Shown here piece after piece: positions 23,307-30,084 of a DNA stretch of 64,000 nt. The translations under genes and the position numbers were made by a program. Within the stretch, counting starts at the first letter, position 1. Each line of letters begins with the position of its first letter. The notes under the pieces were generated by a model, which worked only from the letters and a program-made list of their open reading frames with translations, ran no database searches and had not been told where the DNA came from. Source of the stretch: Candidatus Poribacteria bacterium (lineage in GTDB: Bacteria > Poribacteria > WGA-4E > WGA-3G); contig JAJECN010000010.1 of NCBI GenBank assembly GCA_022821965.1, positions 62,001 to 126,000 on the forward strand, read 5' to 3'.

Positions 23307-24029
23307 CTACTTTACGGATTTGAGATGTGCCCAAGTTGTTGCGAGTTTACTTTTGGCATCAACCGGTAACGACGGTCCATCAGGCCCATAAACAACGACA
23401 TCGTCATACTTTGCAACTGTGCTCCACGTCGCTAAACCGACTCTCCCGACACCGCCTTCAGTGTCGTCGTCAACTTTTGCGACCTCTTCATCGTTGAGGA
23501 TGACTGTGTAACTTTTAGGTGTATTGACGATCTTGATGTTATACCAATCTTTCTCATCTATGGTGTGGTTGCTATTAGCACCGGCTTTGCCGCCCCACGA
23601 TTCAACTTGTGAGCGTGAGTTGCCCCAACCGCCAAGATTCCACCAATATTCCAATGAAGGTTTAAGTTTCTCCATACGTGGCGGATGGTCTTCAAGAGCC
23701 TGACCACGGGGTTGCATCAAGCCTTGGCACCGGAACATAATCAGAAAACCTTCAGCACCGCTGATTTTGCTGCCTCTCACCTCGAAAGTGTAATCGCTCC
23801 ACTTGTCATCCCAAAATTCGTCAGCGACAACGCTCATGCAGTTGGGTGAATTCTGGAGTTGATGGTATTCATCAGCCTTAAGTTCCCATTCTCCAAAGAG
23901 GGGGACCCACTTGTCTTCAGATGCCTTTGGATCATCAAAATTATCTTCAAAATAGGTTTGCGACATCGCAAGTGCAGCAATGCCGAGCGTGATTGTACAA
24001 ACAGTAATGAACACATTACGTCTGTTCAT
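23307..24029 (-). CDS. Secreted LamG/DUF1080-like carbohydrate-binding or hydrolase protein
   Basis: This 240-residue protein has a signal peptide ending LAMSQ. The mature part starts TYFEDNFDDPKASEDKW and contains WGGKAGANSNHTIDEKDW, IVNTPKSYTVILNDEEVAKV and GGVGRVGLATWSTVAKYDDV. These are hallmarks of the concanavalin-like fold of DUF1080/3-keto-disaccharide hydrolase-type and LamG proteins. An AAGGAG Shine-Dalgarno lies upstream. A role in binding or processing an extracellular glycan is inferred from the family. Confidence 0.7.
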   Translation of the reverse strand: MNRRNVFITVCTITLGIAALAMSQTYFEDNFDDPKASEDKWVPLFGEWELKADEYHQLQNSPNCMSVVADEFWDDKWSDYTFEVRGSKISGAEGFLIMFRCQGLMQPRGQALEDHPPRMEKLKPSLEYWWNLGGWGNSRSQVESWGGKAGANSNHTIDEKDWYNIKIVNTPKSYTVILNDEEVAKVDDDTEGGVGRVGLATWSTVAKYDDVVVYGPDGPSLPVDAKSKLATTWAHLKSVK

Positions 24030-24198
24030 AATAGTATTCTCCTTTTAGTGTGCATTGGATATGTAAATCCAAGCACTTCTCAATTATAGTAGAACCCATC
24101 TTTCTGATTGTTGCTAGTTAATTGCTGAAAACTGAACGGTTCTGAATCCATCCAAATTTCGGTTTAACTTAACAGAATGGTATTATTCGACACTTCCT

Positions 24199-24631
24199 TA
24201 GACTAAACTATAGTTTGGGCAATTTTAAGAGTTTCGAGTAGTTGAACTCAAGAGAACACCAGAAGGGACCCTCTCAGATTTTGTAGACTCCCATAGACAC
24301 GAAACACAGCGCATATAACACACTGAATATCACTCATGAAAACCACAGAAACGCCGACATCTACATTCTTAGATCGGAGGGTGAATCGGAGGTTTCGCTG
24401 CTCCCTAAAAATGCGATCTGCCCACGCTACGTCTATTGCAGCGTTGATTTTGATTTTCCTGAAAACCTCCGATCTATGCGTCCTTTTTTATCGGTTTCCG
24501 GTTTCCGTTTTGGATGCTTATCTGATTTTTCGAGGCGTTAGACATCCGTCCGAACTTTTGAGAAAAATCAGTAATGTTTTGAAAATAGGGCATGAACCGC
24601 CCTGAAATTGTCCAAACTATAGTAGACTAAA
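24199..24631. mobile_element. 415-bp non-autonomous transposon (MITE-like) with 9-bp target duplication
   Basis: The element spans 24208-24622. The left end CTATAGTTTGGGCAATTTT and right end GAAATTGTCCAAACTATAG are inverted repeats matching at 17 of 19 positions. They are flanked by a perfect direct repeat TAGACTAAA at 24199-24207 and 24623-24631, the target-site duplication. Inside, TAGATCGGAGG (24370-24380) and CCTCCGATCTA (24466-24476) form a second inverted repeat. A plus-strand ORF of 89 codons inside shows no transposase features. The duplication length suits the IS1, IS4 or IS256 groups, but I cannot assign a family. Confidence 0.85.
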
Positions 24632-24734
24632 GGCTGGAGATATCTTTCTCTTTTGTGAATAGATCGTTTCTACTAGAGAAACCAATATTAGCCTTGTGAG
24701 CCAAGGAGTTTTCGTGGACTTACTACTGGAATTA

Positions 24735-25361
24735 TTATCTCCCAGATACTTTTGCGTTTTGGTGTAATAATGGCAATATAAATTCATTAAGAAAAGCAGC
24801 TCTTGCATAAAACGCTTTACCTGGACCTTTTGTTCTGGGTTGGATATATTTACCCATATATCCGTGAAGTTCAGAAAATTCACCGTTAAGTACCTTATCT
24901 CTAACTAAGTTATAATCAGATTCTATTTGTTTGTAAATTTGCTGATTATCATCTAAGTCAAACATTACCGCTCCATAAAAAACAACTTCTGTTTGATATG
25001 GAGCTTCCCAAATTGTAGTGGCTATTATCATTTTTCTTAATTTCGCCAGCAAACCACTATCTTTAAAACTAGATTTCCTAACATCACTTTCATTAATCAT
25101 TGTTATAGACATAGGATATCTAAATTTGAGTTCACCGTTTTTAAATTCTAAAGCGGTTGTTTTCAGTTCCCAATCCCCAAAATCAGGCTTTTTTGAGGAA
25201 TCTATAGTTCCACCCAAATGCCTTTCTACAACTTGACCTGGCCACCCTTTATTGTATCCGCCGTTATTAGAAATTATTGTGACACCGTACCCATCGGCAA
25301 ATTTACTTAAGTCTTTACCATTAAGGTTGGATAATTTCTGTATTGCTGTTTCTCTTTCCAT
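24735..25361 (-). CDS. MutH/MvaI-like type II restriction endonuclease, copy 1
   Basis: This 208-residue protein fits the MutH/Sau3AI/MvaI-BcnI branch of PD-(D/E)XK nucleases. GWPGQVVERHLG (E46) precedes PDFGDWELK, with D60, E65 and K67 in the expected catalytic arrangement. The C-terminus YIQPRTKGPGKAFYARAAFL matches the MutH-type DNA-contact region. It is the last of three tandem paralogues downstream of a DNA methyltransferase and the most diverged, lacking the HGSTSR insert of the other two. It is the only copy with Asp at the first active-site position. Cleavage site is unknown; GATC would fit the Sau3AI/MutH branch. Confidence 0.75.
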   Translation of the reverse strand: MERETAIQKLSNLNGKDLSKFADGYGVTIISNNGGYNKGWPGQVVERHLGGTIDSSKKPDFGDWELKTTALEFKNGELKFRYPMSITMINESDVRKSSFKDSGLLAKLRKMIIATTIWEAPYQTEVVFYGAVMFDLDDNQQIYKQIESDYNLVRDKVLNGEFSELHGYMGKYIQPRTKGPGKAFYARAAFLNEFILPLLHQNAKVSGR

Positions 25362-25461
25362 TATAAAATCCTTTCCAATATTGCTTTCATTGCTTCTTTG
25401 GTAAAGTAAAACTGGCGGACGTTATAACCCCCGCCATCCGTAAACAGCTCAATATGCCTTG

Positions 25462-26088
25462 TTAGTTATCCCTCTGAGATAGTGCTGGGAAGATAAATTT
25501 TTCAAGAAAAGATTTTCTGGCATAAAAAGCTCTCGAAGTACTTCCATGCCCCGTACCTTTTGTTCTGGGTTGAATGTATACACCCATTTTGCCGGTAAGA
25601 GCAGAAAACCCTTGTGTACAAATTGTTTCTCTGACTAAGTCATAATCCGCTTTCACCTGATTGTAGACTACTGGATCATCTAAATCAAAAGTTGTTACAC
25701 AATATAAAATTGATCTTTCCTCTCGTTGACTTTCCCAAATTCTCGCAGCTACAACCATTTTTCTCAATTTGGTTAGCAGATGACTATCCTCAAAATCAGT
25801 TCGTTCGACGTTATAGGGATCGATCATTGTTACTGCCATTGTCTCTTTAATTCTCAACTCTCCATTCTGTAGATATTTTAAGGGAACTGTTTTTAGTTCC
25901 CACGACCCAAAGTTAGGTGCTTGAGCCGAATTAATAGGCAAATCTAAATGCCTTTCAAGGACATGTCCCGCCCAACCTTTATTTTTCTTTTCACCCTTAA
26001 ATACAGTGACTTCATATTCACTGGCTAACTCTCGAAGGTCCTGACCAGCAATCGTTGATAATTCTTCAACTGCTTTTTGTCTTTCCAT
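25462..26088 (-). CDS. MutH/MvaI-like restriction endonuclease, copy 2
   Basis: This is a 208-residue paralogue of the flanking nucleases. GWAGHVLERHLD (E45) is followed by PNFGSWELK, with N59 where copy 1 has Asp, then E64 and K66. The C-terminal YIQPRTKGTGHGSTSRAFYA is retained. The GGAGAAAGCTATG start region and the preceding AATTGGTAATAG mirror the end of the methyltransferase gene and the start of copy 3, so this copy was duplicated together with methyltransferase sequence. Whether the Asn variant still cuts is uncertain, because the true first acidic ligand in this family may lie elsewhere. Confidence 0.72.
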   Translation of the reverse strand: MERQKAVEELSTIAGQDLRELASEYEVTVFKGEKKNKGWAGHVLERHLDLPINSAQAPNFGSWELKTVPLKYLQNGELRIKETMAVTMIDPYNVERTDFEDSHLLTKLRKMVVAARIWESQREERSILYCVTTFDLDDPVVYNQVKADYDLVRETICTQGFSALTGKMGVYIQPRTKGTGHGSTSRAFYARKSFLEKFIFPALSQRDN

Positions 26089-26101
26089 AGCTTTCTCCTA
26101 T

Positions 26102-26415
26102 TACCAATTATTGTTAGAGCCATCTTCAAATAATCTATGAGGCAATTCATTAAGCCTGTTTTGATCAATTCCGATTGCGTTGATCGGCTGCAGCTGCTGT
26201 AGTTCTCATCTCAGAGAATGGATCAAAAATGAGATCGCCTTCATTAGTACCAACTAAAATAAGCCGATTAACGACCGCTACAAGCTTTTGTGATGGATGT
26301 TTCCAATACTTCCGCTTTGAGGCTTGGTTATCAAAATTTCCCACATGGTTCGCATCTGCTTGTTATTGCCCATCGCTTTCATCTTTTCATAACTGAACGC
26401 CCAATTTACGCGAAT
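26102..26415 (-). pseudogene. Decayed 3' part of a duplicated DNA methyltransferase gene
   Basis: The minus strand translates in pieces to KMKAMGNNKQMRTMWEI, then HPSQKLVAVVNRLILVGTNE and LIFDPFSEMRTTAAAA, ending LFEDGSNNNW. These match the C-terminal third of the intact methyltransferase at 27,159. Frameshifts and stops break the frame, motif I DPFSGTGTT has become DPFSEMRTT, and a segment before the C-terminus is lost. It lies exactly upstream of nuclease copy 2, as the intact gene lies upstream of copy 3. The 26,416-26,519 stretch shows nothing recognisable. Confidence 0.85.
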
Positions 26416-26519
26416 AACCTTGGATTTCAACCAAAGAGAACAGGGCCAAACTGAAAATCTCCAGACATTCTTTCATCACACGTGTCACATCCGAGTGAAG
26501 TCGTGCGCCCAATCTCCTA

Positions 26520-27146
26520 TTACTCTTGAGATAACAAGGGTAAGACGAACTTTTTAAGGAAAGATATCTTTGCATAAAAGGCTCTTGAGGTGCTTCCATG
26601 TCCAGGTCCCTTCGTTTTAGGCTGGATATATTTGCCCATTCCGCTATTAAGAGTAGAAAATCCTTGAGAGCGAATTGTTTCTTTAACCGAATTATAATCG
26701 TCTTTTATCTGATTATAGACCTCAAGATCATCTAATAAATCAAAAGTCGTAACACCATAAAAAATTGATTTTTCCTCCTGTTTACTCTCCCAAATTCTTG
26801 CCCCTATGACAACATGCTTTAATTTGGTAAGTAAATGACTGTTTTCAAAATCGGTCTGCCTAACATTATTAGGATTAAGCTGCGTTACTTGCATTGGCTC
26901 TTTAACTGTCAGTTCTCTGCTTTTCAGGGGTCGTAGAGAAATCAGTTTTAATTCCCATGATCCAGCATTAGGTTCTTGAGAGGAACTGATAGGTAAGCCG
27001 AGATATCTTTCAATTACATGACCTGCCCAACCTTTATTTTTTCCTCCGCCCTTTTTAAATACAGTGACTTTATACTCATCAGCAAGTTCTCGGAGGTCCT
27101 GACCAATAAGGCCTGACAATCTCTGAATTGCTTCATGTCTTTCCAT
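26520..27146 (-). CDS. MutH/MvaI-like restriction endonuclease, copy 3 (adjacent to methyltransferase)
   Basis: This 208-residue nuclease starts 12 bp after the methyltransferase stop, with GGGGGA as Shine-Dalgarno, so it is in the original operon position. GWAGHVIERYLG precedes PNAGSWELK, with N60 where copy 1 has Asp, then E65 and K67. The C-terminal YIQPKTKGPGHGSTSRAFYA is intact. It is clearly closer to copy 2 than to copy 1. It would cut unmethylated invading DNA if active. A nicking or regulatory role is an alternative if the Asn impairs catalysis. Confidence 0.75.
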   Translation of the reverse strand: MERHEAIQRLSGLIGQDLRELADEYKVTVFKKGGGKNKGWAGHVIERYLGLPISSSQEPNAGSWELKLISLRPLKSRELTVKEPMQVTQLNPNNVRQTDFENSHLLTKLKHVVIGARIWESKQEEKSIFYGVTTFDLLDDLEVYNQIKDDYNSVKETIRSQGFSTLNSGMGKYIQPKTKGPGHGSTSRAFYAKISFLKKFVLPLLSQE

Positions 27147-27158
27147 AACTTCCCCCTA

Positions 27159-28334
27159 TTACCAATCGTTATTTGAACCATCCTCAAATAATTCACCGAA
27201 CAACTCATCAACCCTTTTTTGAGCAATTTGATTATACGCTTCTTCCTTCTCAATCATTATCCATCTCCGGTTGTTTTGTTTGGCAACAACTGCTGTTGTT
27301 CCAGTTCCAGAAAATGGATCAAGAATGAGATCATCTTCATTAGTTCCAGCCAAAATAAGCCGATTGACGACCGCTGAAGGCTTTTGTGATGGGTGTTTCC
27401 CATGCTTTCGCTCTGACGGTTTGGTAAGCGGAATTTCCCACATGTTCCGCATTTGCTTGTTATTGTTCATCGCCTTCATTGTTCCATAATTGAAAGTCCA
27501 ATTTTTAGCTTTCTTACTTTCATTATTGACCGCCCAAATGATAAACTCAGTAGACTCAGTAAACATTCGGCAGGTAATATTAGGCTGGGCGTTAGGTTTA
27601 TACCAAACAATTTGGCTTATAATCCGTCGGTTGAACAAACTTTGAAGAATAAAACCGATTGTAAAGATGCAATGAAAAGACCCAAAAATGAATAAATTGC
27701 CGTTTGTCTTCAGCACCCTCAACACTTCAGTAATCCAATCAACAGTGAACTGGAAATAATCATCCTGGGCAAAAATATCCCATTGTTCCTGCATCGTGAC
27801 GTGAGAACTAAATGCCCAACCTAAACCTTTCTTTCTCGACATATTAAACGGTGGATCGGTGATACAACAATCAAAAATTCCATCAGGAAAAGATTGCATA
27901 ACATTTATGCAGTCCCCTGACACAATTTGATTGACAGGAAGTTTCTCGGTTCCGCCCAAAAGAGTTGGTGAACATCCAATAACTTCAGAAGATGGATCGC
28001 GTATTTCACCCCCTACTATTTCCGGGGATACCTGTGTGTTTTTTAGTGGGTGGATTCCAGTTAAAAGATATTCAATCAACTGGGTCTTCTTCAACGATGA
28101 ATATCCTTTTAACCCACGTCCCTTGAGTTCTTCTCTTAACTCCTTTACGCGCATTTGGTGGTGATTTACCTGTTTAATAGGGTTCTTTAATGGATGAATT
28201 CCAGCTGAAAGATATTCAATCATCTGTGCTTTTTTTAGTGACGAGTATCCCTTCAGTCCACGTTTTTTAAGTTCTTCTCTTAGCTCTTTGTTTAGCATTT
28301 GGTGGTAGTTCATAATTTGAGAGTGTTCCTTCAT
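27159..28334 (-). CDS. Beta-class DNA methyltransferase (N6-adenine or N4-cytosine) with two SAP-like motifs
   Basis: This enzyme would methylate the recognition site of the adjacent nucleases. Motif IV DCCITDPPFNMS precedes motif I LILDPFSGTGTT, the beta-class order; DPPF indicates amino-methylation of A or C. The N-terminus has two copies, 43 residues apart, of an ELREELKxRGLKGYSSLKK unit ending in IEYL, which resembles a DNA-binding SAP motif. The chosen ATG at 28332-28334 gives 391 residues; a TTG four codons upstream and an ATG seven codons downstream are possible. Two GATC-containing 11-mers lie just upstream. A second, decayed copy of its 3' end lies at 26.1 kb. Confidence 0.88.
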   Translation of the reverse strand: MKEHSQIMNYHQMLNKELREELKKRGLKGYSSLKKAQMIEYLSAGIHPLKNPIKQVNHHQMRVKELREELKGRGLKGYSSLKKTQLIEYLLTGIHPLKNTQVSPEIVGGEIRDPSSEVIGCSPTLLGGTEKLPVNQIVSGDCINVMQSFPDGIFDCCITDPPFNMSRKKGLGWAFSSHVTMQEQWDIFAQDDYFQFTVDWITEVLRVLKTNGNLFIFGSFHCIFTIGFILQSLFNRRIISQIVWYKPNAQPNITCRMFTESTEFIIWAVNNESKKAKNWTFNYGTMKAMNNNKQMRNMWEIPLTKPSERKHGKHPSQKPSAVVNRLILAGTNEDDLILDPFSGTGTTAVVAKQNNRRWIMIEKEEAYNQIAQKRVDELFGELFEDGSNNDW

Positions 28335-28341
28335 AATTTTT

Positions 28342-28363
28342 GTCAAGATCTCGTCTAGATCTC
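28342..28363 (-). promoter_or_regulatory. Tandem 11-mers GTCAAGATCTC / GTCTAGATCTC before the methyltransferase gene
   Basis: Two 11-bp units, identical at 10 of 11 positions and each holding a GATC, abut directly 8 bp upstream of the methyltransferase ATG. The position suits an operator or a methylation-sensitive control site; this is inference. Confidence 0.45.
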
Positions 28364-28400
28364 AGTCGAAAAAGTGGTTAAGCCTATTTCAGACTTCACT

Positions 28401-28409
28401 AGTATATCA
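28401..28409 (-). promoter_or_regulatory. Possible extended -10 promoter of the restriction-modification cassette
   Basis: On the minus strand, GTGATATACT contains TATACT preceded by TG one base earlier, about 65 bp upstream of the methyltransferase start. No good -35 is seen. Confidence 0.35.
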
Positions 28410-28431
28410 CGAATTGTAGATTTCATTATAG

Positions 28432-30084
28432 TTAATGATTGAGCGAAAATTCGGCTGAATTGAGCAAGACCCAATAGAGGTCTTCATAAGCCAAGTCTTT
28501 GTTACGATAGAGACTGCGCTCCATATAGCGTTTGAAATAGGTTTTTTCTTTAGTCGTTGGCAATCGAGAGAGGACATTGAGATAGATATACTCCAATCGG
28601 TCTGCGGGTTCGCGCCATTTTACCAGTACGTAATTTATGAAGCTGCCGTGTTCTTCATGACTCGCACTGTCATTTACCATATCCCCATTAATCATCATGA
28701 GTGCCTGTGGCACGGTGCCGTTGAAGGCTTCAATTTCCTCCATCTCGCCGTTATCAAGCAGAAAGAGAAATTTTTGGAGATGTTCACGTTTCTTTTCTTC
28801 AAGCGAGCGTAGCATTCCCCTGCGGTCTTCGCCCCCTTGCTTTTTGATACCTTCCATTTTAACCTGTTGTAGCCTTTCAAAACCGGTGGCTTGCAGTAGA
28901 GAATAGAAAAACTGTTCAGCAGTTAGCGGTTTGACGTAGGCATGTGAGTAATAGAATTCGTCATCCTCGTTACTTTTATTCGTTTGCGATGTACGTTGAT
29001 ACGTCTCTGAATTCAGGATTGTCCGCATTAAGTGTTGTAAATCGTAGTCGTGAATCACGAAATCATTTGCGAGCCACTTCAAAAGTTCAGGGTTCGTAGC
29101 TTGGTTTTCTTCTCCGAACCCATCAACGGGTTCGACAAAGGCACGTCCCAGAAAGCGTTTCCAAATCCGATTCACGAGTGCCTGACTAAAATACGGATTT
29201 GATTTATCGGTCATCCATTGTGCGAGTGCTTCGCGTTTTTTAAGGCGTGAACCTTTGTATTCCGTTCCATCCAAAAAGTGTGGGCGGACATGCTTCTCAA
29301 GGTCTCTCACCCAAATCGAATCTTCCGGTTTGTTGGTAAGCAGAAAATTGTCGATCCTCCTCTCATTACCAACCATATCCATACCTTCAATAAACCCTTT
29401 CTGCTCACTCTCAATACCAGTAAAGAAGGCAGCAATGCCGTAGAAATCCTCTTGGCTCCATACTTCTGTTTTATGATCATGGCATTCTGTACACTGCATA
29501 GGGAGTCCTAAAAAGAGTCGGGAGGCATGCGAAGTCAGAAAGACAGGCGAACGCTCGTAACGCAAAATATAGTTTCCCGCGCCGTTGTCTCGTAATTCCC
29601 CATCTGCGGCGATGAGTTCCTGAACAAACTGGTTGTACGGCATATTTTTTCCCAAGGCATCCCGGACCCAAAGTCTTAAGCCGAGGTACTGGCTGTCGGT
29701 ATCGCGCCGCCTACCGATTAACCAATTCACCCACAACCCGGTCCAATAATCAAGGTAGTCTTCACTGTCAAACAGTGCCTCAATCTTTTTCTGACGTTTG
29801 GTTGATGAACCGTCCTTAAGAAAATCCAAGACCTCTTCGGGGGTTGGAATTCTGCCAGTCATATCAAGATGGACGCGACGCAAAAACTCTGTATCCTCGG
29901 ACATCTTTGAGGGTTGAATCCCTTCCCTTTTAAGCACGGCATTGATATGTCGGTCCAGGTGCTTCGTGCTCGACGAAACCTGTCGTGTCGGTGCGACCGT
30001 AGTTTTGGTGCAACCCAACGTCAAGAGGGGAAAAATAAGGAGGATAAGCAGGTAAAAAATGGGCGTTCCAAAAGAGGTTTTCAC
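28432..30084 (-). CDS. DUF1549/DUF1553 (Planctomycete cytochrome-type) lipoprotein
   Basis: This 550-residue protein starts with GTG and has a lipoprotein signal (LTLGC). DUF1549 covers about residues 40-240 (FLRRVHLDMTGRIPTPEEV, LGLPMQCTECHDHKTEVWSQ). DUF1553 covers about 290-545 (LAQWMTDKSNPYFSQALVNR, NRIWKRFLGRAFVEPVDGFG). The CTECHDH motif is the family's cytochrome-like CxxCH, which suggests haem binding. Members often pair with a DUF1501 protein in Planctomycetes, but that partner is absent here. It probably works in the periplasm in oxidative catabolism; the substrate is unknown. Confidence 0.88.
   Translation of the reverse strand: MKTSFGTPIFYLLILLIFPLLTLGCTKTTVAPTRQVSSSTKHLDRHINAVLKREGIQPSKMSEDTEFLRRVHLDMTGRIPTPEEVLDFLKDGSSTKRQKKIEALFDSEDYLDYWTGLWVNWLIGRRRDTDSQYLGLRLWVRDALGKNMPYNQFVQELIAADGELRDNGAGNYILRYERSPVFLTSHASRLFLGLPMQCTECHDHKTEVWSQEDFYGIAAFFTGIESEQKGFIEGMDMVGNERRIDNFLLTNKPEDSIWVRDLEKHVRPHFLDGTEYKGSRLKKREALAQWMTDKSNPYFSQALVNRIWKRFLGRAFVEPVDGFGEENQATNPELLKWLANDFVIHDYDLQHLMRTILNSETYQRTSQTNKSNEDDEFYYSHAYVKPLTAEQFFYSLLQATGFERLQQVKMEGIKKQGGEDRRGMLRSLEEKKREHLQKFLFLLDNGEMEEIEAFNGTVPQALMMINGDMVNDSASHEEHGSFINYVLVKWREPADRLEYIYLNVLSRLPTTKEKTYFKRYMERSLYRNKDLAYEDLYWVLLNSAEFSLNH

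Follow-up and report, generated by a model that had tools for sequence, protein, structure and literature searches.

We analyzed a window of 64,000 nucleotides from a contig of a Candidatus Poribacteria bacterium (JAJECN010000010.1), part of a metagenome-assembled genome of 62 contigs. On its minus strand lies a restriction-modification (R-M) array in which a DNA methyltransferase gene, M, stands with three nuclease genes, R3, R2 and R1 (Table 1). We conclude that the array probably consists of two MutH/Sau3AI-family cassettes, M-R3 and psiM-R2-R1, stacked as a chromosomal type II R-M locus at a defense hotspot, and that the methyltransferase of the second has decayed to the pseudogene psiM. 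This reading follows from the position of psiM between R3 and R2, the separate collinearity of the two halves with relatives, the orthology of R2 to a known first nuclease (Ra), the kinship of R3 with second nucleases (Rb), and a homologous spacer between R2 and R1. If it is correct, an R-M locus is seen here in the act of layering.

Open reading frame (ORF) analysis gave the minus-strand order M, R3, a non-coding gap, R2, R1. A preliminary description of the locus, one methyltransferase followed by three tandem nucleases, was right about the single intact M and the three 208-codon ORFs but overlooked the pseudogene. The gap holds the remains of a second M: its C-terminal half, broken by large internal deletions, frameshifts and stops, with motif I disrupted; it matches M in two different frames. 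The DNA of psiM is collinear with the 3' ends of M genes and is 79% identical over 309 columns to that of locus L032. For reference we used two poribacterial M-Ra-Rb loci: L032, on the closed chromosome OX639973 (genome G082), and L030, on JAAXHL010000063 (genome G059). In blastn alignments, positions 24826-26407, comprising R1, R2 and psiM, are collinear as one piece of 1.6 kb with both loci. Positions 26525-28343, comprising R3 and M, align separately, again to M and the nuclease that follows it. The reference loci share with the array the slot, the methyltransferase family and the tandem nucleases; they differ in having two nucleases and one intact M, with neither a pseudogene nor an M-R3 unit in front.

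The nuclease phylogeny agrees with this layout. R2 is the orthologue of Ra, with 97% identity to Ra of G082 and 93% to that of G059. R3 clusters with Rb of the same two genomes and with the single nuclease of L031 (support 100/98). R1 forms a long branch inside the poribacterial clade, with a terminal branch of 1.77 substitutions per site where the median is 0.21; it groups with Rb at 87/98, and 13 of the 22 sites diagnostic for Ra or Rb are Rb-like in R1, whereas 5 are Ra-like. Protein identities are 65.5% for R2-R3, 49.0% for R1-R3 and 47.5% for R1-R2, all far above chance. The preliminary description had called R2 and R3 the closer pair, as these values bear out, and R1 the oldest or most diverged copy. 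R1 is the most diverged, but we found no support for its being the oldest: it sits in the Rb slot of a known two-nuclease cassette and evolves fast without being demonstrably old.

Which of these genes are under selection? Against orthologues, the ratio of nonsynonymous to synonymous substitution rates (dN/dS) is 0.09-0.13 for M, 0.06-0.12 for R2 (0.07 against Ra of G082) and 0.22-0.25 for R3. Purifying selection is strong on M and R2 and weaker on R3. For R1, dN/dS is unreliable, as synonymous sites are saturated (dS 1.3-3.2). The preliminary description had allowed that very high recent identity between all copies, without purifying selection, would refute it; we found diverged copies and, for R2 and R3, the low ratios just given.

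We class all three nucleases as MutH/Sau3AI-like, for R1 and R2 with the help of predicted structures and for R3 by sequence. Pfam MutH matches R1 (E = 1.9e-7, 31.3 bits), R2 (1.7e-13, 50.7 bits) and R3 (1.1e-8, 35.3 bits), all above the cut-off of 23 bits, whereas the MvaI_BcnI scores (18.2, 23.9 and 23.2 bits, respectively) all fall below the cut-off of 25. The earlier label "MutH/MvaI-like" thus keeps its first half, while the MvaI resemblance is marginal. The nucleases do not reach the NCBIfam equivalog cut-offs for MutH (243 bits; they score 41-59) or Sau3AI (300 bits; they score 57-60, 208 residues being set against a model of 475 positions). A sequence search of the PDB with R2 returned MutH and Sau3AI as sole matches. 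The AlphaFold model of R2 has a predicted local distance difference test score (pLDDT) of 90.9, and its top fold match is MutH (2aor; template modeling [TM] score 0.81). The R1 model (pLDDT 91.4) is likewise predicted to adopt the MutH/Sau3AI fold, with a TM score of 0.78 to 2aor. Structure matches of the two models include both MutH-like domains of Sau3AI (4pxg, 7xm0, 2reu).

The nucleases resemble MutH in size, fold and ExK site, but they adjoin a methyltransferase in a defense slot, have four rather than six residues before ExK and score far under the equivalog cut-offs. With Sau3AI they share the fold and sequence match of its N-terminal domain; Sau3AI, however, carries a second MutH-like domain in its single long chain, whereas these are separate proteins of 208 residues. 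The monomeric enzymes MvaI and BcnI have a similar D-x4-ExK-type spacing (with Asn in R2 and R3), but the fold match is weak (MvaI, E = 0.09).

ExK and a later Lys are invariant across the nuclease family, R1-R3 included. The first metal-ligand position is Asp in R1 and Asn in R2 (residue 58), R3 (residue 60) and nearly all relatives, so that the active-site string reads PDFGDWELK in R1 but PNFGSWELK in almost every family member. In the sequence alignment this Asn aligns with the catalytic Asp of MutH. We rejected a loss of catalysis in R2 and R3 through Asp-to-Asn exchange, since Asn is the family rule. That Asn-type nucleases are widespread and linked with methyltransferases argues that they are active enzymes, as we predict.

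M is a beta-class methyltransferase. Pfam finds N6_N4_Mtase (1.5e-50) and Rho_N (2.9e-6), and the best PDB match is CcrM (1.1e-48), followed by DpnA. Its start codon is TTG, with an alternative ATG at 28334. Each nuclease gene starts with ATG behind its own purine-rich Shine-Dalgarno-like sequence, and only 12 bp separate M from R3, the pairing of methyltransferase and nuclease genes found throughout the family. The N terminus of M holds two tandem SAP/Rho_N-like repeats, encoded by DNA repeats at 28182-28306 and 28038-28162 (75% identity over 125 bp). Loci L036, L031, L035 and L033 match M only from about residue 53-60 onward; hence, one of the repeats appears to be an extra copy.

Both MutH and Sau3AI work at GATC sites. 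By analogy with these folds, and because DpnA is the second PDB match of M and family loci lacking a CcrM-like gene upstream have a Dam-family partner (6 of 6 tested), the target of the array is most likely GATC. DpnII-type systems, which combine Dam-like and DpnA-like methyltransferases at GATC, offer a further parallel: in other phyla, the family nuclease lies between Dam-type and beta-class-like methyltransferase genes. They differ in that the nuclease here is MutH-like and Poribacteria carry the beta-class methyltransferase only.

In the course of events that we infer, psiM-R2-R1 would be the relic of an M-Ra-Rb cassette such as persists in the two sister lineages, and its methyltransferase presumably decayed because their common site is protected by the intact M upstream. 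M would methylate adenine in the target, shielding the chromosome. Incoming DNA that lacks this mark would be cut by R2, very probably also by R3 and possibly by R1, each probably acting on one strand at a time as a MutH-like monomer. A common target would explain why all the nucleases are tolerated under one M. R1, freed from constraint by two sister nucleases, may have drifted or been selected toward a changed DNA-contact region.

Several points weigh against this account. An Ra-side origin of R1 is not rejected (approximately unbiased test, P = 0.33), and the placement of R1 relies on spacer, position and diagnostic residues. The tree of M 3' ends does not separate psiM from M, which is compatible with an alternative, that M-R3 arose through unequal crossing over inside one lineage. 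In a k-mer analysis, GATC avoidance is alike in the two carriers (0.59-0.60) and the four non-carriers (0.60-0.67) compared, as is that of GANTC; avoidance thus speaks neither for nor against GATC as the target. Finally, the evidence is gene- and model-based throughout, and the genome is a metagenome assembly.

Perhaps R1, and even R3, are becoming pseudogenes, so that only R2 restricts in a decaying relic? Such decay is compatible with stacking and concerns present function. psiM is already dead, and of 73 near-invariant positions, 18 are changed in R1 and 10 in R3 but none of substance in R2, whose single broken conserved column is an alignment artefact at Met1. Moreover, nucleases with damaged motifs and no M occupy the same slot in three relatives, and restriction genes that stand alone are frequently fragmentary (PMC3488263). 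However, R1 carries no stop or frameshift, whereas neutral simulation at equal divergence gave a mean of 11.9 stops and a minimum of 2. It also retains Glu46, Glu65, Lys67 and Lys107 and yields a confident model, and the dN/dS of R3 is that of a constrained gene. We regard decay of these nucleases as unlikely.

The preliminary description held functional diversification to be possible. A rival reading on these lines has a single cassette in which the nuclease was amplified in place and diversified. The three products would then act together, as heterodimers or with a nicking or allosteric subunit, in the manner of Type IIT enzymes or of Sau3AI. All three genes are open and each has its Shine-Dalgarno-like sequence; two other lineages keep a two-nuclease form in which selection is purifying on both genes (dN/dS 0.09 between the two Ra and 0.17 between the two Rb), and Sau3AI itself unites two MutH-like domains, both matched by the R1 and R2 models. 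Yet with psiM between R3 and R2, and with each half collinear on its own, the locus shows stacked cassettes, and lone nucleases of the family suffice elsewhere, including an Rb-type nuclease alone in L031. Type IIT heterodimers such as BbvCI and Bpu10I also have more than one nuclease gene per locus, but they recognize asymmetric sites and normally come with two methyltransferases (PMC4081073). Here one M is intact, and stacking accounts for the extra copies. In the literature searched, multi-nuclease R-M systems were two-methyltransferase cases only (C. cellulovorans, LlaJI). Amplification in place is therefore improbable, and two superposed cassettes take its place.

Functional diversification is possible mainly for R1, the sole strong candidate, because its 18 altered near-invariant positions include the HGS(TS) loop while the catalytic residues are kept. 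The changes also hit the KET motif and the His of SH, and the family-invariant residues are retained. One specific form of this idea makes R1 a neofunctionalized MutH-like subunit, with Asp at the first metal-ligand position and the HGSTS loop behind RTKG lost, serving R2 and R3 under one M as a partner that nicks, regulates or has a changed specificity; we hold it doubtful.

A chimeric or collapsed assembly, a concern already voiced in the preliminary description and a natural one for a metagenome bin, is very improbable: the copies are at most ~65% identical, too diverged for collapse, the M-R-R form exists in a closed chromosome (L032), and the flanks on either side correspond to those in G075 and G079, the nearest relatives.

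Table 1. Features of the array and its surroundings (window positions)
Feature	Positions	Strand	Description	Evidence
M-R array	24735-28346	-	M and three intact 208-residue nuclease paralogues	
M	27159-28346	-	Intact beta-class N6-adenine-type DNA methyltransferase, CcrM/DpnA-like	Pfam, PDB match, dN/dS
R3	26520-27146	-	MutH/Sau3AI-like nuclease, Rb-type, first behind M	Pfam, tree, dN/dS
psiM	26089-26519	-	Second-methyltransferase pseudogene, probable remains of R2's former partner	M matches in two frames, DNA collinearity
R2	25462-26088	-	MutH/Sau3AI-like nuclease, Ra-type, canonical for family	Pfam, tree, model
R2-R1 spacer	25362-25461	-	Homologue of Ra-Rb spacer in G082 and G059	Alignment; unbroken blastn alignment across
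R1	24735-25361	-	Fast-evolving MutH/Sau3AI-like nuclease at Rb position; active site PDFGDWELK, HGSTS loop lost	
Occupied slot	24044-28432	.	4.39 kb	blastn of flanks against relatives
PSCyt2/PSD1 gene	28432-30084	-	DUF1549/DUF1553, conserved upstream neighbor	Pfam; adjoins slot across genus
3-Keto-disaccharide-hydrolase-type gene	23307-24029	-	Conserved downstream neighbor	Pfam; adjoins slot across genus

The arrangement is rare but the kind of system is familiar: the oddity is real and mostly explicable. Of 85 genomes from the phylum, 22 carry the nuclease family, and a search of the host genome found no copies beyond R1, R2 and R3. Of 80 loci spread over many phyla, two intact nucleases occur only in the two poribacterial M-Ra-Rb loci, and none of the 69 non-poribacterial loci has a second intact copy, in keeping with the earlier remark that one nuclease is usual. 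The pattern used to find loci had [ND] at the Asn position and was biased against other residues; a second pattern (NKGW) was free of that bias. Within the literature searched, whose coverage is partial, we found no described system with exactly the order M-R3-psiM-R2-R1.

Throughout the genus, the cassette lies between the two neighbors listed in Table 1 wherever both are visible (L031 is without the downstream one). M is present in 9 of 38 genomes. In G075, G079 and G081, the nearest relatives by PSCyt2, the neighbors are 61 bp apart, and blastn of the flanks (L110-L112) shows ~45 bp in place of the occupied slot in G075 and G079, with G081 similar. Elsewhere the slot holds M-R, M-R-R, a solitary R, or Mrr_cat, PDDEXK_11, ParE-like toxin or IS200-like transposase-type genes (including L114, L115 and L117-L119). 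Because these last four kinds of gene occupy it in other genomes, the slot is a defense hotspot. Synonymous distances to G082 are 0.30 for R2, 0.46 for M and 0.66 for R3, against 0.87-1.26 in flanking genes; to G059, R2 stands at 0.30 against 0.96-1.75. These lower values indicate that lineages have exchanged the cassette and that its pieces differ in age. Since a single genus shows the slot empty, single, double, stacked with a fossil and without a methyltransferase, one can trace what becomes of extra nucleases that share one protective methyltransferase.

In G054, G055 and G058, the slot holds nuclease homologues with no methyltransferase (L017, 1501-2094; L019, 1501-2127; L020, 1501-2127; also L117-L119). 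Their frames are open, but NKGW has become NNIW, PNFG has become PSFW or PSSW, and RTKG has become KAIV; dN/dS among them is 0.23-0.36. They are either decaying or domesticated.

We rejected a mobile-element or phage origin of the array: no R1 relative was found in viral contigs and no R2 match in plasmids, and R1 had one match in a phage record. That match, of 35% identity, lies at 475760-476362 in an unannotated 595-kb record of an uncultured phage (LR756511.1). Base composition sets the array apart, with 37-40% G+C in 2-kb bins over it against 44-49% in neighboring bins. Near its 3' end, a stretch of ~65 bp (24557-24626) has five further copies in the genome, of 76-87% identity, and is probably a small dispersed repeat.

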